A stretch of DNA of 64,000 nt from Rufibacter tibetensis. Its GTDB lineage: Bacteria; Bacteroidota; Bacteroidia; Cytophagales; Hymenobacteraceae. Of this stretch, positions 1 through 38,563 are shown one piece after another. Location of the stretch: the NCBI RefSeq assembly GCF_001310085.1, contig NZ_CP012643.1, positions 62,001-126,000 on the forward strand, in the 5' to 3' direction. Both the position numbers and the translations under genes were made by a program. A model generated the notes under the pieces. The model was not told where the DNA came from and did not search any database. It saw only the letters and a program-made list of their open reading frames with translations. The first letter of the stretch is position 1, and each line of letters opens with the position of its first letter.

Positions 1-543
1 CAGGGTGATGGGCGAAAAAGTCTCCGCGGGGCCCTTTACTCCCTCGTACTCCCCTGCTATGACTCTGGTGCTTCCATTGCCGTCTCCTGTGTTAATTACA
101 GGAATTTGGTCGCTTCTCAGTTCTTGGTACCGGGGTGGGGCAAGTTTGTCTTTCTTAGGCACATTTACCCAAAGCTGGATCAGCTCCAGGGTGCCTCCCT
201 GCCGGGCGAATTCATTTTCGTGACGTTCTTCGTGCAGGAGCCCTGAACCAGCCGTCATCCATTGTACATCTCCCGGTCCCAGTTTGCCGCTGTAACCAGC
301 CGTGTCGCGGTGCGCCAGGTGCCCCTGGTACACAACGGTTACAGTTTCAAAACCCCGGTGCGGGTGCGGATCTGCGCCCAAAGGTTTTTCAGAAGGGTGC
401 ACCTGCATAGGACCCGTATGGTCAATAAGCAGAAAGGGGCTTAGTTGCCGGATTCTGGAACCCGGCATGGGGCTGGTTACCTCAAACCCCTCTCCTACCT
501 TTTTCTGGACTCCGTCAATTACCTGGAATATTCTTCTGTTCAT
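1..543 (-). CDS. Pirin family protein (partial, C-terminus beyond window)
   Basis: The reading frame is open from an ATG at 543 to the left edge (181 codons, no stop), so the C-terminal part is missing. The translation starts MNRRIFQVIDGVQKK and carries the pirin N-terminal cupin pattern: HPHRGFETVTVV around residue 50-60, then GDVQWMTAGSGLLHEE near residue 90-105. The two His-rich stretches and the Glu match the metal ligands of the pirin cupin. Pirins are cytoplasmic Fe-binding cupins; some show quercetinase activity, and others are redox or regulatory partners, so the substrate cannot be told from sequence. It lies downstream of aspA on the same strand, about 110 bases away with a hairpin between them, so it is probably separately transcribed. 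Confidence 0.85.
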   Translation of the reverse strand, partial: MNRRIFQVIDGVQKKVGEGFEVTSPMPGSRIRQLSPFLLIDHTGPMQVHPSEKPLGADPHPHRGFETVTVVYQGHLAHRDTAGYSGKLGPGDVQWMTAGSGLLHEERHENEFARQGGTLELIQLWVNVPKKDKLAPPRYQELRSDQIPVINTGDGNGSTRVIAGEYEGVKGPAETFSPITL

Positions 544-4094: not shown

Positions 4095-5987
4095 ATGAGT
4101 GATGCGATAAAACATGAGTGCGGAATTGCCTTGGTCCGCCTCCGCAAACCCTTAGAATATTACGCAGAGAAATACGGCACTCCCATGTACGGCATCCAGA
4201 AGATGTACCTGCTCATGGAGAAACAGCACAACCGCGGGCAAGACGGCGCTGGATTTGCCAGCATCAAGATCAACACCACGCCCGGCACTGAGTACATTGC
4301 CCGGTACCGCTCGGTCAAGACAAAAGCCATTGACGCTATTTTTGGAAGAATTAGCGAGAAATACGGCAAGACGAAGCGGAAATTTCCGCAGGAAGCTAAA
4401 AACATTGAGTGGCTCAGACAAAATCTACCTTTTTTAGGCGATGTATATCTGGGCCATTTGCGTTACGGCACCCACGGTGAGAACAGTGTAGACAACTGTC
4501 ACCCAATGGTGCGGGAAAATAACTGGCGCAACAGAAGCCTGGCCGTGGCCGGTAACTTCAACATGACCAACGTTGACGAGTTGTTCAACGTGCTCACCGA
4601 CCTGGGCCAGCATCCGCGCCAGAAAATTGACACCGTGACGGTATTGGAGAAAATCGGGCACTTCCTGGATGAGGAAAACCAACGCCTCTTTGATTACTTC
4701 AAACCCGATAACAACAACGAACAAATCACTGCCCTCATAGAAGAGCACCTTGATCTGCAGCGCGTACTGCGCCGGGCGTGCAAAGACTTTGACGGTGGTT
4801 ACGCCATGGCGGGTTTGACCGGTTACGGCGCAGCGTTTGTAGTGCGTGACCCTTCCGGTATCCGCCCGGCCTATTATTACATGGACGATGAGGTAGTGGT
4901 GATTGCCTCTGAGAAACCGGCTATCAAAACCGCCTTCGGAATTGAGTACAGCCAGATCAAGGAAGTGAGCCCGGGCCATGCCCTCATCATTAATAAAAAC
5001 GGCGAAGCTTCTGAAAAAGAAGTATTGCCTGCTCTGGAGAAAAAATCCTGCAGCTTTGAGCGCATCTACTTCTCCCGCGGAAACGACCCTGAAATCTACC
5101 AGGAGCGAAAGATGCTGGGAAGACTGCTTAGCCCCCGGGTTCTGGAAGCAGTAGATTATGACCTAGAGAACACCGTTTTCTCTTACATCCCGAACACCGC
5201 AGAATCTTCTTTCTTAGGAATGATGGAGGGCGTGGAAGATTATCTTCGTTCTTACCGCCGGAAAGCCATTGTAGAGGCCAACGGTGACGTAGAGAAACTG
5301 GAAAACATCCTCTCCTTCAGACCACGGGTGGAAAAGCTGGTGATCAAAGATGCGAAGCTCCGCACTTTCATCACCGATAATGACTCCCGTGATGACCTGG
5401 TAGCCCACGTGTATGACACTACCTATGAAGTGGTGAAAAAAGGCATAGACACAGTGGTTGTGATTGATGACTCCATCGTGCGCGGTACTACGCTGGAGAA
5501 GAGCATTATTAAAATGCTGGACCGGCTGGGACCTAAAAAGATCATTATTGTGTCTTGCGCGCCGCAGATCCGCTACCCAGACTGCTACGGCATTGACATG
5601 TCTAAAATGAAGGAGTTTGTGGCTTTCAGAGCCATGATGGGCTTGCTCAAAGACCAGGGCAAAGAAAACTTAGCCACTGAGGTGTACCAGAAATGCCTGA
5701 ACGCTTTGTCTACCGGTGAAGCAAAAGAGCGCAACTTCGTTCAGGAACTCTACAATGAGTTCACCCCTGAGGAAGTGAGCGGCAAGGTAGCCCAGATAGT
5801 GAAAGCCGCTAATGTAAAGGCAGAAGTAGATGTAATTTTCCAGACGGTGGAAAGCCTTCACGAAGCCTGCCCTAACCACATTGGGGACTGGTATTTCACC
5901 GGCAACTTCCCTACTCCTGGTGGTATGAAAGTAGTGAACCGTGCCTTCGTAAACTTCATGGAGAACAATAACGGACGGGCATACTAG
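4095..5987 (+). CDS. purF: Amidophosphoribosyltransferase (PurF), enlarged Bacteroidota form
   Basis: This enzyme catalyses the first committed step of purine synthesis, forming 5-phosphoribosylamine from PRPP and glutamine. Cys9 (MSDAIKHECGIALV) fits the class II glutaminase nucleophile after a short propeptide. HNRGQDGAGF at about residues 45-54 and GHLRYGTHG near 118-126 are typical glutaminase motifs. The PRPP-binding loop VVVIDDSIVRGTTL lies near residues 454-467. At 630 residues it is well over 100 residues longer than the 475-505 of Bacillus and E. coli PurF, with extra sequence in the glutaminase half (around residues 75-110 and 165-230) and an extended C-terminus. It is monocistronic, with its own promoter and a strong terminator. 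Confidence 0.9.
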   Translation: MSDAIKHECGIALVRLRKPLEYYAEKYGTPMYGIQKMYLLMEKQHNRGQDGAGFASIKINTTPGTEYIARYRSVKTKAIDAIFGRISEKYGKTKRKFPQEAKNIEWLRQNLPFLGDVYLGHLRYGTHGENSVDNCHPMVRENNWRNRSLAVAGNFNMTNVDELFNVLTDLGQHPRQKIDTVTVLEKIGHFLDEENQRLFDYFKPDNNNEQITALIEEHLDLQRVLRRACKDFDGGYAMAGLTGYGAAFVVRDPSGIRPAYYYMDDEVVVIASEKPAIKTAFGIEYSQIKEVSPGHALIINKNGEASEKEVLPALEKKSCSFERIYFSRGNDPEIYQERKMLGRLLSPRVLEAVDYDLENTVFSYIPNTAESSFLGMMEGVEDYLRSYRRKAIVEANGDVEKLENILSFRPRVEKLVIKDAKLRTFITDNDSRDDLVAHVYDTTYEVVKKGIDTVVVIDDSIVRGTTLEKSIIKMLDRLGPKKIIIVSCAPQIRYPDCYGIDMSKMKEFVAFRAMMGLLKDQGKENLATEVYQKCLNALSTGEAKERNFVQELYNEFTPEEVSGKVAQIVKAANVKAEVDVIFQTVESLHEACPNHIGDWYFTGNFPTPGGMKVVNRAFVNFMENNNGRAY

Positions 5988-6007
5988 CCTTACCATTTAC
6001 TTTATAT

Positions 6008-6048
6008 AAAAGAAGGGGTTGGTTCTAGTAGAACCAACCCCTTCTTTT
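6008..6048. terminator. Bidirectional intrinsic terminator, purF / T9SS protein
   Basis: A perfect 18-bp stem (6008-6025 with 6031-6048) has a 5-base loop and A/T-rich flanks on both sides. It sits between two convergent genes and can serve both. Confidence 0.9.
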
Positions 6049-23313: not shown

Positions 23314-24696
23314 TCAGGAAACACCAAACACATACTTCTCCATAAACTCATTCCGGAACTTCCCTTCCAGGTCATGATGAAGAAGCAATTGCCTGAAATC
23401 CTCCATTCTCTCATACTGCGCCTGCAACACCTTGGGCTCCATGGTAAACAGTTTTCCCCAGTGCGGCCGCGCATTGAAAGGAGCTAGCTTCTCCTCAATG
23501 AGAGGCAGCAGTTGCATCACCACTTCCTCATCCTGTTTCCAAGTAAAGTGAAAGGCCACAGTAGTTTGCTTGTATTGTGGACTTAGCCACAACTCATCTG
23601 CCTTAATGGTTCTGATTTCTGACACAAAGAGATGCGGTGAGATCTTCTCGTGCAGTGATTCAATTGCCATAATGGCTTCATAAGCATGCTCAATGGCCAC
23701 AAAATATTCACTCTGCAACTCTGCCCCTGCACTCGGTTTGAACCCCATTTTAAAGTGCGGCAAACGCTCGTACCACTCACCAACTTCTCCCAATTGCTCA
23801 GTCGTATTCTCCGCAGATTCACTCTCAATAGGGTGCAACTTTTGAGTAGCCAGTTTTGCTCCAAACACCTCAGGTTCAATAATGGCCGGCACATCCTCCT
23901 CTACTTTACTCTTTACCCAAACCTGGTTAATGTTTTGGTTTTCCCAATGGGTAAACAGGCTCACGCTATACCCTTTAGACATGATTTCTACAAAATGATC
24001 TTGCAATGCGCGCATGGGTAGATTGCGGTACACCACTTGCGTCATTTTGAAGGAGGGCACCAGATCAAGGGTAATCTTAGTTACTACTCCCAAGCCTCCA
24101 AGCGCTACTACTGCTCCGTTGAACAATTCTCCATCCTTCTGCCGGGACATAGTTACCTGTTCACCCGCAGCATTTACAAATTCAATCGCAGAGACAGAAG
24201 TAGCAAGATTGCCGTTTTGTATTCCAGAGCCGTGGGTGGCTGTGGAACAGGCTCCAACTACTGTAATGTGCGGTAAGGAAGCCATGTTAGGAACTGCATA
24301 GCCATGTTGCTGCAGAACTTCGGCTAATTCTCCATACCGCATCCCTGCTTCTACGGTGATTTTAAAGGCTTCTTTGTCCAGTGAAACAATTTCGTTCAAA
24401 CTCTGAAGCGAAATAAGAGTGTCCCTACTGTCAGCGATTGTGTTGAAGGAATGCCTAGATCCTAAGGCTCGTTGGTTTCCGCCATTATTTACCAAGATTT
24501 GTATCTTACCGGTAGATTTAGGGAAATGCACCTTCTCGGCACTGTAAGTAAGATTACCAGCCCAATTAGTAAAACTCTTCGGCTGAGAGAAGGAAACTTT
24601 CCCCTTTTTCCAGTGAGCTGAGAAAAACCTTGACAAGAATACACCACCTGCAACAGCGAGAGAGAATGAAATTAATGCTCTTTTAACCATGGACAA
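23314..24696 (-). CDS. FAD-linked alditol/sugar-lactone oxidase-like protein
   Basis: This 460-residue flavoprotein of the VAO family has an N-terminal FAD-binding domain and a C-terminal ALO-type (D-arabinono-1,4-lactone oxidase) domain. RALGSRHSFNTIAD near residue 75-88 is the alditol-oxidase motif whose His is the covalent FAD attachment site in Streptomyces AldO. HITVVGACSTATHGSG (about 143-158) is the FAD-pyrophosphate region, and ARPHWGKLF near the end is typical of the ALO domain. A hydrophobic segment near the N-terminus (ALISFSLAVAGGVFLSRFF) suggests membrane anchoring or export. The likely reaction is oxidation of a sugar alcohol such as xylitol with release of H2O2; the substrate is inferred from motif similarity only. 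Confidence 0.82.
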   Translation of the reverse strand: MSMVKRALISFSLAVAGGVFLSRFFSAHWKKGKVSFSQPKSFTNWAGNLTYSAEKVHFPKSTGKIQILVNNGGNQRALGSRHSFNTIADSRDTLISLQSLNEIVSLDKEAFKITVEAGMRYGELAEVLQQHGYAVPNMASLPHITVVGACSTATHGSGIQNGNLATSVSAIEFVNAAGEQVTMSRQKDGELFNGAVVALGGLGVVTKITLDLVPSFKMTQVVYRNLPMRALQDHFVEIMSKGYSVSLFTHWENQNINQVWVKSKVEEDVPAIIEPEVFGAKLATQKLHPIESESAENTTEQLGEVGEWYERLPHFKMGFKPSAGAELQSEYFVAIEHAYEAIMAIESLHEKISPHLFVSEIRTIKADELWLSPQYKQTTVAFHFTWKQDEEVVMQLLPLIEEKLAPFNARPHWGKLFTMEPKVLQAQYERMEDFRQLLLHHDLEGKFRNEFMEKYVFGVS

Positions 24697-25032
24697 CTTA
24701 TTGATAAGTCAATATAGACAAAGAGCTGTATCATTCCTAAACATCGTACCCATTCGTAAGGGAACTTGAGGATAAGGAGTAATTTGGATGGATGGTTCTA
24801 CCCAAATCTTAAGAATTCAAGAGGTAGTAAATAAATTACATTAGCAAGTAGCTATCTAAGAAAGTGAACCCATATAAGGTGGTGGCGATTGGTACCGTTA
24901 TTTAGGATGGTGTACCTACTAGTGAGGTAAATTAAGTTCTGAAGATAGACTGAAAAGATTTTTACATAGCAGATGCTTATTGAGAACTTTATTAGAACCA
25001 ACAAGCAAAAATCAAATTGGTAAACTAACATT
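24697..25032. other. Gene-free stretch at the left edge of the AT-rich block
   Basis: No reading frame, RNA or repeat is recognised. Composition shifts here to the AT-rich style seen up to about 37.9 kb. I found no direct repeat shared with the right edge and no integrase gene. Confidence 0.45.
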
Positions 25033-25782
25033 TTACATAAAGCTTAAAAAACGCAAAATTCTTTGCTTTAAAATGAAATATGTTCTAAAAGGAAGGCTAT
25101 TTAACGATGAACCAAAAAATAAAAAAACAACCCCAAGGTAAGAACCAATTGTAACGCCTAATTGATTACCTAATATAAACAAGCAAATGGCACCTAATAA
25201 GCTTATATAGAATGGTACTAACCCATTGCGCTTTTTCGCACCCACAAAAAGAGCGTAGAGATTAACTCCCGTTATTATACCAAATATGGGTAGTAGCCAT
25301 GGGCTGTAAGGAATGGATTTAAGACTCGCAATTCCAAACACACTTAGGTAAGCCGCCCAACAAGCAGGACATTTTGGAAAGAAGGCAATAACAATGGGCG
25401 GAACAACATTAATTACATTCTTAGAAACTTTAATGGTAATGGCAGGTAAATTTATATTTACATTAGACTTTTTTAGCAGTTCTTTAACAGCTTTTATGAC
25501 TTCCGCTTCATTCCACTGTAAGTGAGTAAAACACTGGGCTATTTTGCCTTCTTTATTTAATAAGAATAGCTCTATTCTGTGGTTATTCACAATAGAACCG
25601 GCATAATTTACTCCAAGGTTGAAATACTGCTGAAGTCTTTCGTTTATTTTTCCCTCTGCCCTAAAAAAACGATTTTGATCGTCTATTTTGAAGCCCCTTA
25701 TTTCTGCATACGCATTTAATCTTAAGGGCAAGTCATAAGCTGGATCGTAAGTAATGGCAACCATTTGCAGACTTGCACCCAA
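25033..25782 (-). CDS. C-terminal fragment: end of SCO domain plus MerC-like membrane domain
   Basis: This is the downstream half of the interrupted gene, readable from a TTG at 25782 but more likely untranslated. Residues 1-90 complete the SCO domain. From about residue 115 there are four membrane helices with CPACW at the start of the first, similar to the metal-site Cys pair of MerC/MerT-type transporters. Confidence 0.45.
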   Translation of the reverse strand: MGASLQMVAITYDPAYDLPLRLNAYAEIRGFKIDDQNRFFRAEGKINERLQQYFNLGVNYAGSIVNNHRIELFLLNKEGKIAQCFTHLQWNEAEVIKAVKELLKKSNVNINLPAITIKVSKNVINVVPPIVIAFFPKCPACWAAYLSVFGIASLKSIPYSPWLLPIFGIITGVNLYALFVGAKKRNGLVPFYISLLGAICLFILGNQLGVTIGSYLGVVFLFFGSSLNSLPFRTYFILKQRILRFLSFM

Positions 25783-25788
25783 GTCCTC

Positions 25789-26640
25789 TTATGCTAAAGC
25801 TTCCTGAAGTTGCACTAGTCTAGTAATTGTTAAAGAACATTTATTTGGGTTATCGCACCGGGTGTAAAAGAAGGCTACAATTGTTGGGGCTCTATGAAAG
25901 AATTTGTTAAAGGCAAGTTTCTGCCCATTTTGATCCTCTAAAGTTAATTCTGAAACATCTATTTCGCTTGTATGGGTATTCAAACAATTGGTAGAATTAC
26001 TTAAAAAGCTATAATCACAACAGCTATCCATTACATTTCGATTATCCTCCTTAATGCAATAAATAGCTTTTTCGAGTTGTAGTTTTATGTCTGAATTAAT
26101 ATGATTTAATTTACCATCCCTTAACTGCTCAAGTTGTGCAATAGCAACTTTGGCGTAGGCCCCAAGCCATTGAAATGTAGTAAATATTTCATTTAAGGCT
26201 GTGGTATAATCTTTTAAAGCTCCCTTTGGTTTATATGATGCAAAAGAAATCCCATCATCCATGCCCCAAATATTTCGGATAGCCTTCAAAAGAAAAGGCA
26301 CTACTTGTATACTTGGGTTCTCCATACCCCTTAGGGCTTTAGCTGCGGCGGCAACACTATAGGCTTTACGGCTACTTTCCAACTCCTGTAATACATAAAC
26401 TAAGGCATCCTTAGGTAGGCCAACCTGTTCAAAAGCGGCCAGAATATATCCTCTCATTCGGATAACTTGGTTTGTGCCCCGGTTTTTATATAAGGGGTGT
26501 TGTTCCGGCAATAATCTTACAAGTAAATCTCTTTTTTCCGGAACAAGCAGTATCCTGTCAACAAAGGCCGCAAACTCTTCTTCTGGAGTTTCGCTGTTGT
26601 AGCTTTTGATAGCTGAGGCCAAATCTTTAAAAACCGGCAT
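25789..26640 (-). CDS. N-terminal fragment: HEAT-like repeats plus start of SCO domain
   Basis: The 283 residues run from an ATG two bases after the HEAT-repeat gene's stop to the in-frame TAA. The first 170 residues are helical repeats (for example SVAAAAKALRGMENPSIQVVPFLLKAI), followed by the first half of the SCO domain including both Cys. Without the second half the SCO fold would be incomplete, so the fragment alone is unlikely to bind copper normally. Confidence 0.6.
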   Translation of the reverse strand: MPVFKDLASAIKSYNSETPEEEFAAFVDRILLVPEKRDLLVRLLPEQHPLYKNRGTNQVIRMRGYILAAFEQVGLPKDALVYVLQELESSRKAYSVAAAAKALRGMENPSIQVVPFLLKAIRNIWGMDDGISFASYKPKGALKDYTTALNEIFTTFQWLGAYAKVAIAQLEQLRDGKLNHINSDIKLQLEKAIYCIKEDNRNVMDSCCDYSFLSNSTNCLNTHTSEIDVSELTLEDQNGQKLAFNKFFHRAPTIVAFFYTRCDNPNKCSLTITRLVQLQEALA

Positions 26641-26642
26641 TA

Positions 26643-27629
26643 CTACTTATTTTTCTTGATTTGTTCAGCAGCCGATTTGTACTGAGAATAAACAGCTTTA
26701 AAATTTGGGGATGCTATTTGCTGTTTGGCGTTCTCGAGCTTATGTTTAAATTCGGAATCATTCAGCGCATTTGTTTCAACAGAATAAGTTAGGGTATTCA
26801 ACATAGCCGTTTTCAATTCCTCATCCTCGTTCTCATCCAAAATAATTGCTTTGGCATAAGGCTGCGCATCGCCAGGCAAAACTGTTTCCAGGGCTACTGC
26901 ACAAACATGCCGTGTTTCGGGGTCTACTGTAGGGTCCTGTAGGTTCTGCAATAATAAATCTCTTGAATCCGGATCAGCAGCCAGATTGCGTAGTGCTTCT
27001 TTTTTACTGCGGACATTAGGAGGATTTTCAGCAATTTCACGGAGAATAGGAAAGTGCTCCGCATGCAAATCATAAGATAAAAGTTGTATAGCTACCTCGG
27101 GCGGAGTAATTTCCTTATCCGGTTCTTTTAAACCCTCTACCAGGCGCGACTGTATATAGGAGTCATTGTTCATTGCCAAATGCTCCATCGCCGATTGCTT
27201 TAGTATTGGATCAGCTGAATCTATTAAATCCCGTAAAGCGTTAAGATAAGCTGGTCTTTTAACCGGGAAAATGGAAGAACTAAAGCTACTGGCCTGTAAA
27301 ACAGTTAATGCCGCTCTTCTTAATTTTACCGGTGCCGATGCATCCCTTAAAATAACAATAACCTCATCCATTAATTTTTCATTACGGCTTACTTCATTAA
27401 TCAACCCCTCCAATATCGCCGCCCTAAGGTCTTCCGGTTGTGTATCATCATGTAAAATTTCCATACCTTTTCGGATGTGCTCTTCTTCATTAAAAGTTCC
27501 GAAGTTTTTAAAGGCCTCTAGCCTGTCCTGAAGAGATTTGGAGGCATCAAAAAAAACCTCAGTTGATCCGGCCATTCTAGCTTGAGCATCTTCTAATTGT
27601 TTCCGATATGCACTTTTATAATCAGTCAT
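26643..27629 (-). CDS. HEAT-repeat protein
   Basis: The 328-residue soluble protein is made of repeated helix pairs with the HEAT pattern: LRAAILEGLINEV, VKLRRAALTVLQAS, PILKQSAMEHLAMN, VRSKKEALRNLAAD and PETRHVCAVALETVL recur every 35-45 residues. Such solenoids bind partner proteins. It has no signal peptide and no enzyme motif. It lies 19 bases after the tyrosinase stop and 2 bases before the HEAT-SCO gene, so all are probably one transcript. A scaffold role in assembling or loading copper into the tyrosinase is inferred from this context. Confidence 0.78.
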   Translation of the reverse strand: MTDYKSAYRKQLEDAQARMAGSTEVFFDASKSLQDRLEAFKNFGTFNEEEHIRKGMEILHDDTQPEDLRAAILEGLINEVSRNEKLMDEVIVILRDASAPVKLRRAALTVLQASSFSSSIFPVKRPAYLNALRDLIDSADPILKQSAMEHLAMNNDSYIQSRLVEGLKEPDKEITPPEVAIQLLSYDLHAEHFPILREIAENPPNVRSKKEALRNLAADPDSRDLLLQNLQDPTVDPETRHVCAVALETVLPGDAQPYAKAIILDENEDEELKTAMLNTLTYSVETNALNDSEFKHKLENAKQQIASPNFKAVYSQYKSAAEQIKKNK

Positions 27630-27648
27630 AATAATTTTCGTTTAGAAC

Positions 27649-28941
27649 CTAAGCAACCTGGCCTGGGTGGTCAAATGGTACATCATCGTAAGCAAAACAT
27701 AAGTTCGAAGCAAGGTTGTGTTGCCCCTGATAATCAATCATACTTTTTAAGTCCGGATTTAGACCAGGTACTTGCACAATTGGTGAATCAGGAAATGTTC
27801 CTCTGGGTCCGGTAGTGGGCCTTGGTGCAATAAAATCTCCATTCCAGGGCCACATGGTATCATCTGTAAAATTTCCAATGCCAAATTCCCCGGCAGTTCC
27901 GGTGTTCCCATTTCCTTGGTGCGGATAAGCATCCTGACTAGAAAAATCAAATCGTTGTCCATCCATCACCCATTGCCACTTTGCCCATAACCGGTCTACA
28001 TTAGCATGTAGCATAAAAAATAGTGGATCCGCTGGCGCCCTGTCAATTTCAGAAACAGGACCATCAAAGCTCAGGTGGGCTCCGCCATGGGGATCCCCCT
28101 CCATTCTTCTAAATATTCTAAATTGACTTCCAAGGCTAATAGTTTCCATTTCATCATTTTGAACCATTGCTGCCTTTTCATTGCGTGTATCAAAAAAAGG
28201 CACTCTTCTTATTCTGCCGGTTCCTTGTCCGAAAATTGTTGGCCGCCAATTTATTAAGGGATTGGTATTACTAAATTCTATCAATCCTGTACGATCAGGT
28301 ACTCCTACAAAATCTCCAGAAAACACATTTGGTGCAGGTTTATCAAAGCGCCAGTAAGGTAGTGTAACGCTAGGGTCTATTTCCTGCAGTTTACGCTCAA
28401 AATCTAGTAAATATGCCCGATGCCAAACCAGGAACGAACTTCGTCTATGAATTTCCGGATCAGCCTGAGCAGTATGCATGTTTTGAAAATCAACATATCT
28501 GCCAAGTTGGGTCAACCGGACAATGGCCGCAAGATACCGGTCTCTTTCAGATGGGGTAAGGGTATTTGCATCTTTTCTGACCCGCACCATTAAAGCTTTG
28601 CTGCCAATTTGCGCGGACGAGCTCCTATCAATTACCGCAATAATACAGTCCTTATCTCTGATGCTTGCGTGGCCTATTCCGGTATTCCGGTCAAACTTTC
28701 CGGCTATATAAAAACTTACCGGATCTCCGCTACCGCCAGTTTCCAATTCAATTGAATTGGAAACTGGGTCAGTTAAATGTTGTTTAAAAACAACCTGACC
28801 ACCCGTAGCAGCATTAACATTTTGGAGAACCACGCGTTTATTAAGTCCATCGGTAGATGAAATGGTGCATCTGGATGGAGTCCAGGTTATGTAATCCGCA
28901 TCTGGATTTACAGAATTGCCTATCAGTATTTGAACGCTCAT
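27649..28941 (-). CDS. Tyrosinase-family type 3 copper protein
   Basis: The 430-residue protein has the paired copper sites of tyrosinases and related oxidases. For CuA these are His156, His165 and His174 (MHTAQ, then EIHRRSSFLVWHRAYLLDFER with the typical H-x8-H spacing). For CuB they are His285, His289 and His312 (DPHGGAHLSF, then DPLFFMLHANVDRLWAKWQ). All six expected ligands are present. Such enzymes hydroxylate phenols and oxidise catechols to quinones, giving melanin-like products. The first 120 residues form an extra beta-rich domain of unknown role. No signal peptide is seen, so cytoplasmic folding and later release or retention are both possible. It leads an operon with HEAT and SCO/MerC-like genes that look like maturation factors. 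Confidence 0.88.
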   Translation of the reverse strand: MSVQILIGNSVNPDADYITWTPSRCTISSTDGLNKRVVLQNVNAATGGQVVFKQHLTDPVSNSIELETGGSGDPVSFYIAGKFDRNTGIGHASIRDKDCIIAVIDRSSSAQIGSKALMVRVRKDANTLTPSERDRYLAAIVRLTQLGRYVDFQNMHTAQADPEIHRRSSFLVWHRAYLLDFERKLQEIDPSVTLPYWRFDKPAPNVFSGDFVGVPDRTGLIEFSNTNPLINWRPTIFGQGTGRIRRVPFFDTRNEKAAMVQNDEMETISLGSQFRIFRRMEGDPHGGAHLSFDGPVSEIDRAPADPLFFMLHANVDRLWAKWQWVMDGQRFDFSSQDAYPHQGNGNTGTAGEFGIGNFTDDTMWPWNGDFIAPRPTTGPRGTFPDSPIVQVPGLNPDLKSMIDYQGQHNLASNLCFAYDDVPFDHPGQVA

Positions 28942-28980
28942 CTGGATAAATTTTAATATTACATAACAATAAAGGTTTAC

Positions 28981-29295
28981 CTATTTGATGATTATTTGGA
29001 CCACCTCCACAGTGGGCAAACCATCTATACTTTGAATACTACAAAAAGGGTAATAAACATAGTTACCTGAAGAAAGCTTTACCGTAACATAATCATTTCC
29101 AACTTTAAAAATCTTACATTTCGTTAAAGATTTATTATTCACGATAACGATAATATTACTTTTCAAATAAAGATTAAGCACTTCTTTAAAAGAAGTGGGT
29201 GTTTGCTGTATTATCAATTTTAGAGAAGACCCAAAATCAAATAAGTTTAAATTAAACAGTGAAATTAATCCTGAAATCAAAAAACAATTTAACAT
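28981..29295 (-). CDS. Small protein with Sm-like/DUF2642-like segment
   Basis: The 104-residue protein has a hydrophobic N-terminus and a C-terminal segment (about residues 47-100; NIIVIVNNKSL, KIFKVGNDYVTVKLSSGNYVYYPFCSIQSI). That segment resembles the small beta-barrel DUF2642 proteins described from Firmicutes (strand, glycine turn, VGxDYVxL, YIPFxxIxSI). The match is by eye and moderate. The start at 29295 is preceded by a GAGGGTGG ribosome-binding-like stretch. It ends 39 bases before the tyrosinase start on the same strand and is probably co-transcribed. A regulatory or RNA-related function would be speculation. Confidence 0.6.
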   Translation of the reverse strand: MLNCFLISGLISLFNLNLFDFGSSLKLIIQQTPTSFKEVLNLYLKSNIIVIVNNKSLTKCKIFKVGNDYVTVKLSSGNYVYYPFCSIQSIDGLPTVEVVQIIIK

Positions 29296-29689
29296 AGGTT
29301 TCCACCCTCATAAATTTATAATTAATACACTTTGTGTCTTTACAACTAATTATCTGTAACATAATCCATGTAAACTTCAAACTTAGTTAGAAATACTAAT
29401 TATAATTAATTTATTAAGTATCGAAACAACTTACATAAACCTGAGTAAAACATGTTACAAATTTTACCAAATTTAACTACTTATTCAGGGATTTTCTTTT
29501 TTACTTCATAATATACTCAAAGTATAAATCTTTGGTTTTAAAGTAATTAATATCAAACAAAAATAATTGGCGACTTACATAACAAAGGAATTTATAAGAA
29601 CAAATTCCAACTATTACTTTCAACTTACTGATCTAGATTTATATTTTCAAGAATTAGCAACTAACTTTACTATTTATTAATCAAAAAAA
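29296..29689. other. AT-rich intergenic region
   Basis: It is extremely AT-rich. It contains a candidate TAAGTTTG promoter element for the tyrosinase transcript and the downstream end of the lipoprotein gene set. No coding potential is seen. Confidence 0.45.
29378..29385 (-). promoter_or_regulatory. Candidate -7 element (TAAGTTTG) of the tyrosinase operon
   Basis: This TAnnTTTG match on the minus strand lies 83 bases before the ATG of the 104-residue gene. No -33 TTG is clear. The region is so AT-rich that chance is a real possibility. Confidence 0.3.
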
Positions 29690-30244
29690 CTATAAAGGCT
29701 CAACAAACCCCTTTTTAGCGTAAACTGCCAACATTTTCCCTTCGAGCTTCCTAGAAGAACGCCTTCCAGGTTTCAATGTTGCTTGTAAATTAACAGTAAT
29801 ATATGTATCGAAAGCGGTTTTTGAACCCATATTAATTTGATCAGAAATGCTCGCTGTTAGATTATAACTTTTATCCCGTTCAAATGCATTAACAGTTGCA
29901 CTTTTCATAATAAAATTTGACGCATCTTTACTTAGAACAGTAAAATTTATTATTACAGCTGCCCTTACATTATCAAAACGGATAGTATCAGAATATGAAA
30001 TTTCATTGGCTTGCTTCCATTCACCTTGTAAATCAGTGGGCAAATCCCATTCCCTTGTAGCTAAGATATTTGCAGAATCATCAATATTATCCCTTATTTC
30101 AGATGCCTGGTTTCCATCAATGGCATGGATCTCTGAAGTTGACTTTGTCTCTTCTGACTGGACAGATGATTTATTACAACTTAAAAGCATTACAAATAAT
30201 AAAAAAGATAAGCGAGATTTATTTTCTGGTTTCATAAAGATCAT
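29690..30244 (-). CDS. Putative lipoprotein, 184 residues
   Basis: The N-terminus (SRLSFLLFVMLLSCNKSS) is a lipoprotein signal with the Cys at about residue 23, so the mature protein is probably lipid-anchored in the periplasm or at the outer membrane. The rest begins with a Ser/Glu-rich linker and ends in a beta-rich domain (IINFTVLSKDASNFIMKSATVNAF, YITVNLQATLKPG). I do not recognise the family. It is the last of a minus-strand series that starts with the two-component system near 37.5 kb. Confidence 0.7.
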   Translation of the reverse strand: MIFMKPENKSRLSFLLFVMLLSCNKSSVQSEETKSTSEIHAIDGNQASEIRDNIDDSANILATREWDLPTDLQGEWKQANEISYSDTIRFDNVRAAVIINFTVLSKDASNFIMKSATVNAFERDKSYNLTASISDQINMGSKTAFDTYITVNLQATLKPGRRSSRKLEGKMLAVYAKKGFVEPL

Positions 30245-30366
30245 TTATAACTTAACTACATTGATGAACAGCATTTGAATAAAAAAGAAAAATCATTATA
30301 ATTTATAAGCCTAGGATTCCTTTAATTACTAGATGGCTAAGAATAAATTTTTTTGAAAATTACCTA

Positions 30367-30693
30367 CTATTTGATGAATATTTTAAACCTTGCTTCAATT
30401 TCATTTGCCTTTAAGCCTTTAATGACATAGTTCTTCTTACCAACTATCTTTTTACAGTTAATAACTACTTTGCCACCTTCTTTTCCTGAACTTTCAAAGT
30501 CAAATACTGTCTTATCCCCAAACTCAATAGCATTAGCATATATTATCAAATCATTAGCCCCGATTTTAAAGGTCCCTTTTAACTTTCCATTGTTAACTGC
30601 ATAATATTGATCTTTATCAGTTCCAGTTATCTCTCTAGGTACACAAGCTGTAAACAAACTGATTAAGGCTATAAAAACAATATTTACTTTCAT
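30367..30693 (-). CDS. Small putative lipoprotein, 108 residues
   Basis: The signal MKVNIVFIALISLFTACVPRE has a lipobox ending in Cys17. The mature part is about 90 residues, mainly beta (KLKGTFKIGANDLIIYANAIEFG, GGKVVINCKKIVG), and carries a second Cys. The family is unknown. Its start lies six bases after the stop of the 554-residue secreted protein, so the two are surely co-transcribed and may act at the same membrane. Confidence 0.72.
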   Translation of the reverse strand: MKVNIVFIALISLFTACVPREITGTDKDQYYAVNNGKLKGTFKIGANDLIIYANAIEFGDKTVFDFESSGKEGGKVVINCKKIVGKKNYVIKGLKANEIEARFKIFIK

Positions 30694-30699
30694 TAAGCT

Positions 30700-32364
30700 T
30701 TACTTTTTGGTGTTAATATTAAAGTTTAAGCCCAGGTATAACTTAGGAGTTGAATCGAATTTCCACCTAATTAGGTTTTGCAATTCAGCATCCCCACCAG
30801 TAATAATATCTCCTTCTTTCTTTTCTGATAATTGCCTATTCCAAGTAAGCAGTCCTCCAATTGAAAAAGTAATATTATAATCAGGAAGGTTAAAGCATAA
30901 ACCCGAAAGGAACATTGGATAATTTTGGCCTGCTGCAACGCCAAACTGAAGACCAGGCAAAAAATGGCTATTCCTTATATTTGGAAAAAGATTTAAACCA
31001 GCTCCAAAATTAAAATAGTCCTTTTCTTCTTTGGTTTTAACAATTGTAGCATTTCCACTAGCATCATTAGCTGTACTAAATTGATTATAATTCACATCAG
31101 TATAAAACCCACCTGTAGATGCTACCAAAATTACATTGCGTATTCGTTTAACTGAAAAATTTCTATTTATAACAGATTTTTCTTCTACTGTAACTAAACT
31201 TGGATTATTTTTATTAAAGGTTAAATGATTTATTTTTAGGCTTATAGTCTGAAAATTTTTTCTATCGATAGGAAGGCTTTTTATAAGCTGATAGTATTCA
31301 CCTTCCCAGTCGTTCGAATTTTGATAGGCCTCTAGTTTTTTATAACAGTTCAGCAATTCTTCCTGCTGCTTTTTTCTTTTGGCAAGAATGTCTTGATATT
31401 TTTTGAGAAGACCCCGCAAATGGACAACAACTAGATTTCTTGCAAAATCATGTTTATTTTTATCAAAGCTCCTTTGGTTATTTGGATCCGAAAAGCTGAT
31501 ACTATCAACATTAATAATTTCTTCAGGATGATCAATCTTGTCGGTTACATCGATAATTGATGTCTCCATTGATGATATTAAATATGCTAATGATGTAGTT
31601 ACCTCTTTTTCAACTATTCTTCCATTTATATCCTTTAAATTATCCTTTAATGAAGCTATAGTTTTTAATCCTTTCATTTCTTCAAAAACTTCTAAGCTTG
31701 TCGTTTCAAATGAATTTTGCATAAAAGCCTCTTCCGCACTAATCAGAATATTTAACAATTCCTTTTTAGTTTCAGGTTTTGAATACAAGCTTAACTCATC
31801 CGAATTCAACCAAAGATACAATTCTATTGTCTCCAAATTTTGAAGGGATTTGAAATCCTTTATTTCTGTTGCTGTCTGCCCTAATTGTGTAGGGGAATGA
31901 ACAAACACCATCTGATTTCCCCCTTTTAATATGTCACCAAATGCTGTATTGATATTAGTACCTGAAGCAGATGGCAATCCAGCTAATAATGCGCCGGTAG
32001 CATTCAAAGCAGTAATAAAATTAGAAGTAGCATTATTTAAATCCTCATCTACTTCTTCTTTAGTTTCTACATTTACCTTATATACTAAAGGATTTAAAAA
32101 TTGTAACCAAATATTCACATAGGAAGATTTAGCGGAGAGATTAGAATTATTTCGTAATACTTGTTTTTTTAAACGATTATCTTTATAAGATAAATCTTTA
32201 AAAAACACTATATTAGTATCACCGCTAATGGATAATTCAAGTGCCAAAATATCATCAATCCTTTCTGATTCTACATTCTTAATGATATAGTCTTGAGCAT
32301 TTGCTTTATTTATAAATAAACAAAAGCAGAAAATTAAACAAGTCGATTTATAGAGATTTATCAT
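30700..32364 (-). CDS. Secreted/outer-membrane protein of unknown function, 554 residues
   Basis: A signal peptide (STCLIFCFCLFINKANAQ) precedes a long helical region (about 60-370) with coiled-coil character (KYQDILAKRKKQQEELLNCYKKLEAY). The C-terminal 180 residues alternate hydrophobic and polar residues and end in a beta-barrel-like pattern (YLGLNFNINTKK; PGLQFGVAAGQNYPMFLSGLCFNL). It may be an outer-membrane protein with a periplasmic helical domain. No known family is recognised. It has the same strand and AT-rich base composition as its neighbours. Confidence 0.7.
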   Translation of the reverse strand: MINLYKSTCLIFCFCLFINKANAQDYIIKNVESERIDDILALELSISGDTNIVFFKDLSYKDNRLKKQVLRNNSNLSAKSSYVNIWLQFLNPLVYKVNVETKEEVDEDLNNATSNFITALNATGALLAGLPSASGTNINTAFGDILKGGNQMVFVHSPTQLGQTATEIKDFKSLQNLETIELYLWLNSDELSLYSKPETKKELLNILISAEEAFMQNSFETTSLEVFEEMKGLKTIASLKDNLKDINGRIVEKEVTTSLAYLISSMETSIIDVTDKIDHPEEIINVDSISFSDPNNQRSFDKNKHDFARNLVVVHLRGLLKKYQDILAKRKKQQEELLNCYKKLEAYQNSNDWEGEYYQLIKSLPIDRKNFQTISLKINHLTFNKNNPSLVTVEEKSVINRNFSVKRIRNVILVASTGGFYTDVNYNQFSTANDASGNATIVKTKEEKDYFNFGAGLNLFPNIRNSHFLPGLQFGVAAGQNYPMFLSGLCFNLPDYNITFSIGGLLTWNRQLSEKKEGDIITGGDAELQNLIRWKFDSTPKLYLGLNFNINTKK

Positions 32365-32490
32365 ATTAAAAATTGGTTACAACAATACATTCTTAGTTTA
32401 AATAATAATTTTATGTTTATAAAATAATTCATAAACTTCCTTTGTATAATAAAAAACAGGAAAGTTTAGATAAAGAATAAATTCAGTAGC

Positions 32491-35400
32491 CTATGGAGGC
32501 ATTGGCCCTCGGTAGGTAGTATCACGAACTTCTTGACTCCATAGTTCTTTAGAAGTTTTAAGGTCTAATGCACGAACTTTTAATGGTTCTTTTTTTAAAC
32601 CCTCCTTAGTTCTTATAGTATAAGGCTGGGTTTGATAAATTACAATGTTATCCTTTACAATAAAGTTTACAAATGGAAAAGGGCTTTTAAATTCTCCTAA
32701 CTGCTTTTTACTATCGCGCTCGTAAATTCTCAAAGTGTATCTTCCTGATACCGCATTGTTATTTGTGGGTTGACTTACTAATATATGCAGGCCATCTGCT
32801 GATATAAATTGGGGACTTGAGCTTCCTGAAATAAGCTTTGAAGAAAAAGAAGCTTTATTCTTTAGGCTATTTAAATTATTTAATTCAGCAGGTTGATCTA
32901 TAGGAGTTGTTTCACCATTTGAAAGCTTTAACCGAAAAGCACCACTTTTAATATTTGTTAATGAAGTATCGCCTTTAGGTAAAGTAAAATTTATTTCCTC
33001 TTGGGCAGGCATTTTACCTCTCGTACGTTCCAGCACGCCTCTTTTAATATTTCTGCTTTTGTCAGGTTCGACAAACTGCCAGGCCACTATTAAATCATTG
33101 TTAACCAGATACGAATTAGCAACAAACTCACCTTTTGATGACTTTATAACAGAGGCGTTTACATCAGAAGGCAGTTCCTCTTGAGCGGAAACTATTGTAT
33201 GGCCATTTGCAGGGTTTAGTGCAACTATTTTTAGGTTGTTGTCTGGTTTCAAATTTTCAACTTGGCTTATTAAACGTTTTTTTACAACTCCTAAAGGCTT
33301 TGTTGCTGCTGCTGTATACCACATCTTTTCACCAGTTGAAAGTTTTACTGCTTCAATACCCCCATTTGGGCTCATAATAAAAGCACGACTTTTATTCGGT
33401 TCTATAATTACACCAGGAAAAAGTTCAAATGAATTTTGTTTACTTGACTTCTGAATATTGACATCTTCCACTATCAAGGGCTTATTAGTTTGATAATTGG
33501 TTCTGTTTACCAGATTACCATGCACCAGTAAAGGTTCCGGGAATTTTAACGTGAATGCACCTCTACCTAACGTTCCAGCCAGCAAAATTCTATCAACAGC
33601 ATCATACTCTAAGCTCATTACTGGCACCTTAGGAAGCTTTGCACCCAGTGAAGTCCAATCCGTGTAGTTTGAACCAGAAGCCATGTAAACTCCATTCTCG
33701 GTTCCAATTATAATTGCTCCTTCAGGAGTATGATTGCTATAGGTAATGGAAAAAAGTTCTCCAGGAGAAAATTTGGGTAAGTTGCCGGTGATTTCCGTCC
33801 ATGAAGTATCGCCGTTTGCAGTGTGGTAAACTCGGGTAAAATCAACTACAAAAGCAGAATTGGGATTATTTGGGTCAATTGCGATACCAGCTACCCAACC
33901 ACCGTTATAAGAAGTTGATCTTCTTAATGGCTCTGGGGAAGCAGATTTCCTTATATACAATGAGTTTCCTGACCCAACATATAGTACCTCTGGATTTCCA
34001 ACTGCACCATAAGCAATAGAGCTAGTGTAAGTTGCGTTTACTACAAGCCTTTGGCCATGTTCATCAAAAATCTCTTCAGCAAAAGCTCCTTCGTTAAACG
34101 ACTCATAAACAGAATGTTCACCACCAATAATCATGCGGTAAGGCTCAACATTGTTTAGCTTTATAGGAGTATATAATCTCCCAATAATTGAGTCACCGCT
34201 TGTTGAAGTTGGAAAAATTGTATATGAAAGCTGCAAATTATTTTTAGCATCAAAAATATCGCGTACTAAAAAAAACTTATTATTTTGCTCCAATTGACTT
34301 GAGAAACGTGTAGAGGTATCCGGCACACTAAAATCATTAATCGCTACTACCCCACCGTCGCCCAATAAAACACTGTTCCACTTTACATTATTAGGTTGTT
34401 CCTGTTCTGAAGAACCTGTATCTTGCGCTCCACCAATGATAGTATTTGTATTTGCATCCCAGGCAATGGAATGGAACTCCGTTGTTTGAATATTACCGTT
34501 CATGGAAAACCAGTCGCCTTGGTTAGTTTGTGGGCTCGTCCTACGGTAAATTCCCCCATCATTAACCTCAATAAGTACACCATTGGCTGCTATAGCCATA
34601 TCTCTTGAGTCTGCATGAGGCGCACTGTTATTTCTAGTTCCACCTCCAGAAGCTCCTAATAGGTTCGAATGGGTAAGATGTACCCATTGTTTGTCCAAAG
34701 GCTTAGATACATCTCCTCTAAATAAAAGTCCAGTATATTCCTTTGCACCTATGGAATTCCCATTTGTGAAACCTTGTGGTCCAGGTTCTTGCCTATCACC
34801 TCCTAAATATACAATATCAGGACTTTTAGGATCTGCTATAAGTGAGAAATGTATATTCCCCTGTCCTCCTGGATGTAAACCTCCTTCAGCCGTTTTAGGT
34901 AATGACACAGTCTTCCATTGAAAATAATTTTTATCAGAATAAAAGAAGCCTACCAAAGCATAGGGTGGTCCTTTTTCGAGGGATGGTGTTACAACTGCTA
35001 CAAAGATATTCTTACTGCCCCCCACTGAAATTTTGATATTTGCAGCATCGGCTATCATATTATCCATGGCAACATTGCTTATTTTGCTCCAGGTTGTTCC
35101 AAAGTTCAAACTCTGGTAAATACCTGCTTTTCCTGCATTGGTAAATAAGCGCTTCGGATTGGTGGGATCTGAAGTAAGGCCAAAAGATGCACCAGAAGGA
35201 AGGCCAGTTTCTTTTAATCGGCCAGATACTTTCCTCCATGATTTACCAGTATTGGTACTCCGCCAAATGCCTACAAAGGCTGTGTCTAGATAATTAGCTG
35301 ATTTATATGATTTATTTACAGAAATAAGAATTGTATCTCCACGAGAGGCGACACCTGATATATTTAGATTATTCAGAGTATCCTTACCATTTATAGCAAT

Positions 35401-35865
35401 CCAGCTTTTGCCATTGTTTGTGGTGCGCAGCAAACCTGAGAGAGCGCCACCTATATTCTCAAAACTACTGAAACGACCAATACCAGCTATAAGAGTTCGA
35501 TGTGTTGGATCCTTGGTATCATATTCCAAAGCACCTATCGATAAGGAACTTTGATTATCAGTATTAGTTTCCCAAGTAGGTTTTGCTGCCATTGCGTTGC
35601 TTGTTTTCCATATTCCACCGTTAACGGTTCCCACAAAAACAACATTGGAGTCGGTAGGATGTACTGCAACGGCATTAATGGCACCAGATACCTCTCCATC
35701 TTTAATGTTTTCTACTTGACCATTAATAGTAGGACCTGGGGCATGAGGCATCCAAACCATCTGTTGCGCTTTGACCCTACCATTAAATAAAAGTAACAAA
35801 ATAAATAGAGCTCTTAATATTCTCCATCTATAACCTTTTAGCTTTATTTCTACTCTAGTCATCAA
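32491..35865 (-). CDS. Secreted beta-propeller (BNR/sortilin-like plus PQQ-like) protein
   Basis: The 1124-residue protein starts with a signal peptide (ILRALFILLLLFNGRVKAQ). The first 760 residues carry repeated BNR/Asp-box-like elements (GGIWKTSNAM, GLLRTTNNGKSWIAI, GIWRSTNTGKSWRKVS, GIYQSLNFGTTWSKIS), the pattern of sortilin/Vps10-type or exo-sialidase-like propellers. The last 300 residues resemble PQQ-type propeller blades (GIEAVKLSTGEKMWYTAA, KVRALDLKTSKELWSQEV). No T9SS sorting tail is seen. Such double-propeller proteins in Bacteroidota are often annotated as glycosyl hydrolases, but I see no catalytic motif to support an enzyme. It may bind polysaccharide or protein at the surface, or be controlled by the upstream two-component system. 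Confidence 0.78.
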   Translation of the reverse strand: MMTRVEIKLKGYRWRILRALFILLLLFNGRVKAQQMVWMPHAPGPTINGQVENIKDGEVSGAINAVAVHPTDSNVVFVGTVNGGIWKTSNAMAAKPTWETNTDNQSSLSIGALEYDTKDPTHRTLIAGIGRFSSFENIGGALSGLLRTTNNGKSWIAINGKDTLNNLNISGVASRGDTILISVNKSYKSANYLDTAFVGIWRSTNTGKSWRKVSGRLKETGLPSGASFGLTSDPTNPKRLFTNAGKAGIYQSLNFGTTWSKISNVAMDNMIADAANIKISVGGSKNIFVAVVTPSLEKGPPYALVGFFYSDKNYFQWKTVSLPKTAEGGLHPGGQGNIHFSLIADPKSPDIVYLGGDRQEPGPQGFTNGNSIGAKEYTGLLFRGDVSKPLDKQWVHLTHSNLLGASGGGTRNNSAPHADSRDMAIAANGVLIEVNDGGIYRRTSPQTNQGDWFSMNGNIQTTEFHSIAWDANTNTIIGGAQDTGSSEQEQPNNVKWNSVLLGDGGVVAINDFSVPDTSTRFSSQLEQNNKFFLVRDIFDAKNNLQLSYTIFPTSTSGDSIIGRLYTPIKLNNVEPYRMIIGGEHSVYESFNEGAFAEEIFDEHGQRLVVNATYTSSIAYGAVGNPEVLYVGSGNSLYIRKSASPEPLRRSTSYNGGWVAGIAIDPNNPNSAFVVDFTRVYHTANGDTSWTEITGNLPKFSPGELFSITYSNHTPEGAIIIGTENGVYMASGSNYTDWTSLGAKLPKVPVMSLEYDAVDRILLAGTLGRGAFTLKFPEPLLVHGNLVNRTNYQTNKPLIVEDVNIQKSSKQNSFELFPGVIIEPNKSRAFIMSPNGGIEAVKLSTGEKMWYTAAATKPLGVVKKRLISQVENLKPDNNLKIVALNPANGHTIVSAQEELPSDVNASVIKSSKGEFVANSYLVNNDLIVAWQFVEPDKSRNIKRGVLERTRGKMPAQEEINFTLPKGDTSLTNIKSGAFRLKLSNGETTPIDQPAELNNLNSLKNKASFSSKLISGSSSPQFISADGLHILVSQPTNNNAVSGRYTLRIYERDSKKQLGEFKSPFPFVNFIVKDNIVIYQTQPYTIRTKEGLKKEPLKVRALDLKTSKELWSQEVRDTTYRGPMPP

Positions 35866-35979
35866 TTAAAATCACTTATTATTTTGCGATTTTATTCTTC
35901 AACCTCATTCCTCAGCTTCAACGTAGTTTCAATGTATTATTATAGATTTGAGGCCCATTGGCTAAATGTTCTGGAAATC

Positions 35980-36624
35980 TTACTCTCCCAATCTTTTTAA
36001 AATTGCTCCTTTAGCAGAATGCACATGCAACTTCTCATAAATATGTTCCAAGTGTTTCCGAACTGTTTTGCTCGCAATAAATAATTCTTCTGAAATTTGT
36101 TTTACTGCCAATCCACGCTTCAAACACTCTAATACTTCTTTTTCCCGCTTACTAAGGACATCCAAAGCCGCTATTGTTGGTTTAGGCATTACTTTTTCCC
36201 CCTTCAAATAACTTAGTACCATACCAGCTAAGCTTGGTGAAAGTGGCAACCCCCCGTCCAACACATCATAGATAGCATTAAGCAACTGGTAGGGCTTAGC
36301 ATCTTTTAACAGGTACCCTGAAGCACCTGCCTCCATAGCATTAAAAAGTTTTTGCTCGTCGTCCATCACTGTCAGCATTACAATCTTCAAATCCGTACAT
36401 TTTTGCTTAGCTAATCTGGTGGCTTCAATACCATCCATATCTGGCATTTGTATGTCCATGAATATTACTTCCGGTATAATACCTTTTGCTAATGTTTGTA
36501 ACAGTGTCAGCCCATTTGGTACTTCAAATAGCACTTCTACATCTTCGCTTAACGCGAGCTTATCTCGAATATCTTGCCCCAATTGGACATTGTCTTCCAC
36601 TATCCCGACGGTAACTTTTTGCAT
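35980..36624 (-). CDS. NarL/FixJ-type response regulator
   Basis: Residues 1-120 are a receiver domain with acidic pocket ED (10-11), phospho-acceptor Asp57 (VIFMDIQMPDMDG) and Lys in YLLKDA. Residues 150-214 are a LuxR-type helix-turn-helix (LSKREKEVLECLKRGLAVKQISEELFIASKTVRKHLEHIY). It is of standard length (214). It follows the HisKA_3-type kinase gene with an 80-base gap and the same direction, so the pair is almost certainly cognate. The target genes are probably the downstream secreted proteins, but no operator could be picked out. Confidence 0.92.
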   Translation of the reverse strand: MQKVTVGIVEDNVQLGQDIRDKLALSEDVEVLFEVPNGLTLLQTLAKGIIPEVIFMDIQMPDMDGIEATRLAKQKCTDLKIVMLTVMDDEQKLFNAMEAGASGYLLKDAKPYQLLNAIYDVLDGGLPLSPSLAGMVLSYLKGEKVMPKPTIAALDVLSKREKEVLECLKRGLAVKQISEELFIASKTVRKHLEHIYEKLHVHSAKGAILKRLGE

Positions 36625-36704
36625 CCAAATTAGATATAGAATTTGCTCTATAATTGAAAGGTACAGTGTAAAATTCAGCTTGTAAATACGTCAAATGACG
36701 TATT

Positions 36705-37478
36705 TTAAGCACTTAAAGGGAGTATAACCTTGATGCAGGTACCTGAAGCAGTAGAATTTATAAGGAAAGTGCCTTTTACTTCCTCCGCACGTTTGCGCAA
36801 GTTAGTAAGTCCAAAACCGTTTGTTGAAGAAGAAGCATGCAAGCCTCGTCCATTATCTTCAATGGTAAGAGATGCATTTGCTTTTGATATTTGCAACGTC
36901 ACACATACCTGCGATGCTAATGCATATTTTAGCGCATTGTTAGTACCTTCTTGAGCAATGCGTAATAAGTGCATTGCAACTAAAGGCTCCACCACTGATT
37001 TATCCTTATTATGATACAAATTCCAATTGAGGTTTGGCACCTCACGGTCTTCCCAAATCTTTAGCAACAATCCATGCATTCGCCCCCCTAATGCTTCGCC
37101 TGTGACCTGTTCCTGATCAAGTAGCCAGATTGTTTCTCTGAGAGTATGATTCATCTCCCGGGTGAACTCACTTAGGCGGAGAAGTTGCCTAGAATCTGGT
37201 ATTTTATGGTAAGCAAGTAATTCTAGACGTGAGATAAGGTGAGTGAGTTGAGAACCAAATCCATCATGTAAGTCACGCCCCAACTTTTCACGCTGGACCT
37301 GCAACTCTTTTTCCAAATGGACTGCTTTCAGTTCTGCGTCACGCTGTTTTTGTTCGGCTTCTACTAAGGATTGTAGCAATACATTATAAGAACTAAGTAT
37401 TTCTACCTTTCTAGTTAAGTATTGGATATGATAATTGGTCCAACTGAGAATATTGCTCAGCATGTTAGCTACAATCAT
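36705..37478 (-). CDS. NarL-system sensor histidine kinase (HisKA_3 type), short
   Basis: The 257-residue kinase has a short N-terminal helical segment, a dimerisation/phospho-acceptor domain with His71 in GRDLHDGFGSQLTHLISRLELL, and a HATPase_c domain (EGTNNALKYA, DNGRGL, GFGLTNLRKRAEEV). It has no periplasmic sensor domain and no clear membrane helix beyond a weakly hydrophobic N-terminus, so it probably senses a cytoplasmic signal or relies on a partner. The short form may be an N-terminally reduced version of the usual TPR- or membrane-linked Bacteroidota kinases. Two in-frame ATGs (37478 and 15 bases further in) are possible starts. Confidence 0.88.
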   Translation of the reverse strand: MIVANMLSNILSWTNYHIQYLTRKVEILSSYNVLLQSLVEAEQKQRDAELKAVHLEKELQVQREKLGRDLHDGFGSQLTHLISRLELLAYHKIPDSRQLLRLSEFTREMNHTLRETIWLLDQEQVTGEALGGRMHGLLLKIWEDREVPNLNWNLYHNKDKSVVEPLVAMHLLRIAQEGTNNALKYALASQVCVTLQISKANASLTIEDNGRGLHASSSTNGFGLTNLRKRAEEVKGTFLINSTASGTCIKVILPLSA

Positions 37479-37795
37479 AATATATTAAATAAAATATTAT
37501 ATTGTTATTTCAAGTATATAAGCAAGGAGCATGCAGAGCTTCTTAGAAAAAGCTTCTGAAACGGGAAGAAGAAAAACTTAAGATAGGTAAATAGCCATTT
37601 ATGACTGTAAAATAGTCGGGCGTTTACCCTTGATGATTACTAAAGAGATACTATTTTATATCAAGTCTTAGTGTTTATACTAAATAGATTGGAATTACTT
37701 TTTTTATATTTTCTTTGTCACTAAACTAAAAGAACAATACTTCACCTTCAATACTTACTATTAAGTATTTATACAGAAGTGTAAGGTTAAAGCAA
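37479..37795. other. AT-rich gene-free stretch at right edge of accessory block
   Basis: This is upstream sequence of the two-component genes. No reading frame, RNA or boundary repeat is recognised. Confidence 0.45.
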
Positions 37796-37830
37796 AAAAG
37801 GCCTTCGTAGAAGTACTACGAAGGCCTTTT
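37796..37830 (-). terminator. Intrinsic terminator after sigma/anti-sigma operon
   Basis: A perfect 15-bp stem (37796-37810 with 37816-37830) has a 5-base loop and is followed by T's on the minus strand. It lies 120 bases past the anti-sigma stop and insulates the AT-rich block from it. Confidence 0.8.
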
Positions 37831-37951
37831 ATAAGAAGAAATAAAAAGTAAGTAATTGTGAGTTTAGAAGCTTACTATCAAATCCTATAATAAAAGAATC
37901 ACAATCTTTTTGACTACAAACTTCTTGTTAATCAAAGACTATTATCAAGCA

Positions 37952-38563
37952 CTACGCCGCCAACCGTTGCAAAATCACTTTACAAGGCTCTTTTGAAGTC
38001 ACCTTCACCATATGGTTCTTATGCAACGGAATGGCAAAGAAATCTCCTGGCTTCAACGAATTCACCTCCCCATCAACGGTTATGTCACAGCTGCCTTCCA
38101 AAATCAGGAAGCGCTCGTGTTCATCATGGTGAATTTCCTCCTCGGCTATGCCTTTGAGCCAGACAATGGCGGTGGTTACACTGGGGGTGTAGCCAATAAT
38201 CTTCACGTAAATATCCTCGGCATCAGGAGCTAATTGCATATCATCCCGGGTATACCAGGTGGCGTAATCCTCTACTTTAGACGTAGGGGTAAGTTCTGGA
38301 GGGGAAGAAACGGGCTCTCCATTTTTCATCCGCTCCATGTAATCTATGGTTGCCAGTACAAGTGGTTTAAGTGTGCTGGGCGGTTCTACAGCATGAGCCA
38401 AGGCATACGCTTCTATGCTTTGACGAATGGCGTCGATCTCTTTGCGGATCTCAGGGTGAGCGGAAGCCATTTGCTCTACCTCCTGCGTTTCTTCTGGCGT
38501 AGTGGCGTCCATGACGTACAGCTCTAAAATCCCGGATTCTATGTAGTCTGTAATGGGGTTCAT
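37952..38563 (-). CDS. Cupin-domain anti-sigma factor (ChrR-like arrangement)
   Basis: The N-terminal 80 residues look like an RskA-type anti-sigma domain (IESGILELYVMDATTPEETQEVEQMASAHPEIRKEIDAI). The C-terminal half is a single cupin barrel with metal-ligand pattern HHDEHERFLILEG and PGDFFAIPLHKNHMV (about residues 140-190). No membrane helix is present, so it is a soluble anti-sigma factor whose cupin could sense a metal or oxidant, as in the ChrR/SigE pair of Rhodobacter. Unlike ChrR it lacks the N-terminal HxxxCxxC zinc motif. Its ATG overlaps the sigma factor stop by four bases (ATGA), which indicates translational coupling and a direct partnership. Confidence 0.82.
   Translation of the reverse strand: MNPITDYIESGILELYVMDATTPEETQEVEQMASAHPEIRKEIDAIRQSIEAYALAHAVEPPSTLKPLVLATIDYMERMKNGEPVSSPPELTPTSKVEDYATWYTRDDMQLAPDAEDIYVKIIGYTPSVTTAIVWLKGIAEEEIHHDEHERFLILEGSCDITVDGEVNSLKPGDFFAIPLHKNHMVKVTSKEPCKVILQRLAA

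Follow-up and report, generated by a model that had tools for sequence, protein, structure and literature searches.

A single in-frame TAA codon interrupts an accessory SCO gene that lies last in a conserved tyrosinase–HEAT–SCO gene trio of Rufibacter tibetensis

A gene for a SCO-domain protein in the Rufibacter tibetensis window (the whole 64-kb stretch of DNA that was analysed) is interrupted by one TAA codon, and we consider, with a probability of about 0.7, that this stop is a nonsense mutation of the ordinary kind that arose recently in an accessory gene for a probable copper-delivery protein. The break itself is nothing unusual; the relatives that were found point to a little-noticed conserved gene trio, in which the SCO gene follows the genes of a tyrosinase, a copper enzyme that forms pigment, and of a HEAT-repeat protein.

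Translation of the minus strand from 26640 to 25033 gives 536 codons, among which codon 284 is the sole internal stop, and a TAA terminates the frame. This confirmed the claim of an earlier note on this DNA that two halves lie in one frame (535 codons, one interruption) and are parted only by the TAA, as well as its reading of the residues E-D-L-G directly after it. The SCO1/SenC profile (PF02630) matches residues 233-365 of the read-through protein with 41.8 bits (cut-off 22.8), thus the SCO domain runs across the stop. The cysteine pair is encoded 5' of the TAA and the membrane domain 3' of it, as had been noted earlier, and the conserved histidine also lies 3' (Table 1). The minus-strand orientation and the tyrosinase cluster go beyond what the earlier note described. 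The TTG from which the 3' open reading frame starts is three codons past the TAA and is a possible re-initiation site. The G+C content of the broken gene is 0.36-0.38 versus 0.45 for the whole window. No other adjacent pair of open frames in the same frame, each of at least 130 codons, is present in the 64 kb. A chance juxtaposition of two open reading frames was ruled out by this uniqueness together with the full-length uninterrupted homologues described below.

Table 1. Features of the interrupted SCO gene, its trio partners and the surrounding accessory segment (positions in the window; residues of the read-through SCO protein where so marked)
Feature	Position	Strand	Remarks
FAD oxidase gene	23314-24696		flank of accessory segment
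Accessory segment with the trio	24697..37951	.	~13 kb; missing in two congeners
3' half of broken SCO gene	25033..25788	-	ORF 25782..25033 from TTG, 249 aa
In-frame TAA, codon 284	25791..25789	-	plus strand letters tta
5' half of broken SCO gene	25792..26640	-	ORF 26640..25789, 283 aa
HEAT-repeat protein gene	26643..27629	-	second trio gene; 328 aa, intact; PF13646, 28.2 bits (cut-off 27.7)
Tyrosinase gene	27649..28941	-	first trio gene; 430 aa, intact; PF00264
Cupin gene	37952-38563		flank of accessory segment
Helical HEAT-like N-terminal region	residues 1-205		5' half
Cys-Cys motif	C207-C208		5' half
Start of SCO domain with CX5C motif	C262, C268		5' half
Remainder of SCO domain with conserved His	H354		3' half
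MerC-like four-helix membrane domain with FFPKCPxC motif	residues about 400-530		3' half

Homologues were searched at the genus, family, order, class and phylum levels, the queries being the read-through protein or alignments built on it. A full-length copy was found neither among 15 congeners nor in the remaining genomes of the 204 searched in the family, and the sole full-length match in the order is a protein of Dyadobacter sp. CY326 (G716; 532 aa), which shows 40% identity over residues 23-531 and contains no stop. A scan of genome contigs with a single protein yielded no match; a scan with a two-sequence alignment retrieved the relatives from Dyadobacter and Ferruginibacter sp. HRS2-29 (530 aa), and plasmid records provided those of Paraburkholderia caribensis (526 aa), Bradyrhizobium barranii (400 aa), R. 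gallicum (398 aa) and Rhizobium sp. CIAT894 (339 aa). Each of these six distinct homologues is one uninterrupted open frame. In the seven-row alignment the column of the stop is variable and free of gaps, and every one of the six relatives has a sense residue there, which implies that the stop is particular to the R. tibetensis genome. The comparison of this codon in relatives, which the earlier note had proposed, therefore upholds its view of a gene broken by one stop; relatives carrying two separate proteins divided at the TAA site were also sought, and none was found among the six. C207-C208, the CX5C motif and a V-N-x-H motif are shared by the seven SCO proteins, in all of which C262, C268 and H354 are invariant.

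The proposal that the loss is very recent is supported by the single lesion and by the lack of excess divergence past the stop. We counted, for each of the sequences from the window, Dyadobacter and Ferruginibacter, the columns in which it is the odd one out while the other two agree; the counts were 21, 40 and 42, respectively, 5' of the stop and 20, 35 and 39 3' of it. The window sequence differs less than the intact genes do on both sides, hence the 3' part is not decaying, and conservation is as good 3' of the stop as 5' of it. No second lesion was found in the broken gene, and the two trio genes upstream of it are intact. The lack of decay and the intact neighbours fit a recent mutation or a sequence error.

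In an AlphaFold model, whose mean pLDDT of 64.6 is modest and which was used solely for locating the stop within the predicted thioredoxin fold, the TAA falls at the end of the helix formed by residues 265-284, after the CX5C motif, and the next strand comprises residues 292-297. The metal-ligand cysteine pair and H354 are on separate open reading frames, and with the ligands on different fragments the protein has most likely lost its SCO activity; a split within a thioredoxin fold would be expected to prevent the binding of copper. Re-initiation at the TTG might still yield the C-terminal membrane domain, which makes the loss of the entire 3' half uncertain.

The SCO1/SenC profile matches all seven trio SCO proteins (E at most 0.1, best 1.5e-15), and the cysteine pair and the downstream histidine of the trio proteins align with those of the Bacillus subtilis Sco protein (PDB code: 1xzo; E 1.3e-9). 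The trio proteins, however, carry a CX5C motif instead of the CX3C motif of SCO1/SenC, and have in addition the invariant upstream Cys-Cys and the helical HEAT-like N-terminal region, as well as, in four of the seven, the C-terminal membrane domain. Unlike SCO1/SenC, they lack a signal peptide or N-terminal anchor: by simple hydropathy of the first 70 residues none was recognized in any of the seven, the maximum 19-residue mean hydropathy being 0.99. The role for which SCO proteins are usually known is to equip cytochrome oxidase, outside the cytoplasm; while cytochrome oxidase is the gene partner of SCO1/SenC, that of the trio SCO proteins is a tyrosinase.

Between the end of the HEAT-repeat gene and the start of the SCO gene lie 2 bases, and between the tyrosinase and HEAT-repeat genes 19, spacings that are as expected for one transcript. 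The same order is found in Dyadobacter, Paraburkholderia, Bradyrhizobium and both Rhizobium species, and also in Ferruginibacter, where the tyrosinase and HEAT genes are fused; the trio with the SCO gene last is thus present in two phyla. The middle gene is annotated as a HEAT-repeat protein in R. gallicum only, while elsewhere it is a "hypothetical" protein that was placed by its position and length; the Dyadobacter protein shows 31% identity to that of the window. In the window tyrosinase, the only one found in the genome, all six copper-ligand histidines are conserved in the alignment, and none of the five tyrosinases examined has a signal or anchor by hydropathy. In the Bradyrhizobium barranii plasmid pBb323S2a (L066) the tyrosinase seems to be frameshifted (about 4700-6046), with the N-terminal part and the annotated C-terminal part in different frames, and another record for this strain (L084) likewise has no more than a short tyrosinase annotated. 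In Rhizobium sp. CIAT894 (L067, 5900-6130) the C-terminal ~50 residues of the tyrosinase are in a different frame. These two trios thus appear, from the records, to be damaged in the tyrosinase gene, or the records contain errors.

The trio lies in an accessory segment. In two congeners (G003 and G010) the cupin and FAD oxidase genes that flank the segment in the window are within 100 bases of each other, which means that these congeners lack about 13 kb, the trio included; a third congener (G002) carries other genes at the same site, and the neighbouring response regulator and histidine kinase genes are kept. Upstream of the tyrosinase gene, the stretch at 28942-30244 has a very low G+C content (0.285) and small open reading frames, of which one of 104 aa (28981-29295) had no Pfam match.

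The P-K-C-P-x-C motif is invariant in the four SCO proteins that have the C-terminal membrane domain. This domain resembles the mercury transport protein MerC (PF03203) weakly, with 16 bits, under the family cut-off of 27.6 (E 0.019 for the window protein, best 0.0045). MerC belongs to mer operons, whereas the window-type domain is linked to tyrosinases instead. Free-standing homologues of the domain adjoin a tyrosinase gene at eight of the ten Bacteroidota loci examined: a small FFPKCPxC membrane protein, often with a Cys-rich N-terminus, is encoded beside the tyrosinase in eight Bacteroidota genomes (L038-L040, L057-L061), and the neighbouring tyrosinase is mostly of another subgroup than that of the window.

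An accessory, acquired gene is a usual place for a recent inactivation, which fits the nonsense mutation that we prefer. We think it unlikely that the stop stems from a wrong base call in sequencing or assembly, the living strain having an intact gene. A single substitution-type lesion in an otherwise perfect frame with no decay agrees with such an error, from which the absence of a second lesion would also be expected; however, the genome assembly consists of 3 contigs, and the single long matches that the surrounding core genes give to congeners speak against an error-ridden local assembly. An error of long reads, moreover, would more often be an indel than a substitution.

We hold it improbable that the two halves are working proteins, the 3' one being translated from the TTG and serving mainly as a membrane partner. 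The 3' half is an open frame with undiminished conservation, and the free-standing membrane homologues of 160-240 aa that adjoin tyrosinases offer a parallel; but the stop falls within the SCO domain rather than at the boundary between domains near residue 395, which would leave ~110 residues of broken SCO ahead of the membrane part, and no relative found is split in this way. That a full-length protein is made by programmed read-through, which the earlier note had suggested, or by a leaky TAA is hardly credible. The frame is kept and the part downstream is conserved; nevertheless, the stop codon is a TAA, no signal can be seen, and with an ordinary sense codon at this variable site in all six homologues nothing conserves a stop. 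The window contains no other gene pair of this kind, and we know of no mechanism of TAA recoding in such bacteria.

We propose, with the nonsense mutation as the preferred reading, that the SCO gene comes third in a trio that moves laterally and that probably serves to load copper into a cytoplasmic tyrosinase. The HEAT-repeat protein, the SCO protein and the membrane domain may together bring copper to this tyrosinase, the SCO protein being the putative donor. A recent single nonsense mutation, probably real in the living strain, would have interrupted the SCO gene halfway through the thioredoxin fold, and the tyrosinase would now be poorly loaded with copper unless a different SCO protein in the cell takes over.

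In the Streptomyces melC operon (PMC2758597), the tyrosinase MelC2 is encoded with a dedicated helper (caddie) gene, MelC1. The window cluster is similar to MelC1/MelC2 in the pairing of a tyrosinase with a dedicated helper gene; the neighbours in the window are, however, SCO and HEAT-repeat proteins, neither of which matched MelC1 in the libraries scanned, and the window tyrosinase reaches 92 bits with the MelC2 model, far below the cut-off of 450. MelC1 itself is a small protein that is secreted and transfers copper, and to our knowledge the copper supply of bacterial tyrosinases without a helper of this type is not well known. Open-access titles and abstracts contained nothing specific on a link between tyrosinase and SCO or between tyrosinase and HEAT-repeat proteins. 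Tentatively, and with somewhat less than even confidence, we suggest that the trio with the MerC-like domain, fused or free, constitutes a previously undescribed system that loads copper into intracellular type-3 copper enzymes, of which the window would hold a natural SCO-null version. The gene order in two phyla ties a SCO protein to a tyrosinase that lacks a signal peptide, and the trio is thereby a direct candidate for the copper supply of tyrosinases that have no MelC1-type helper.
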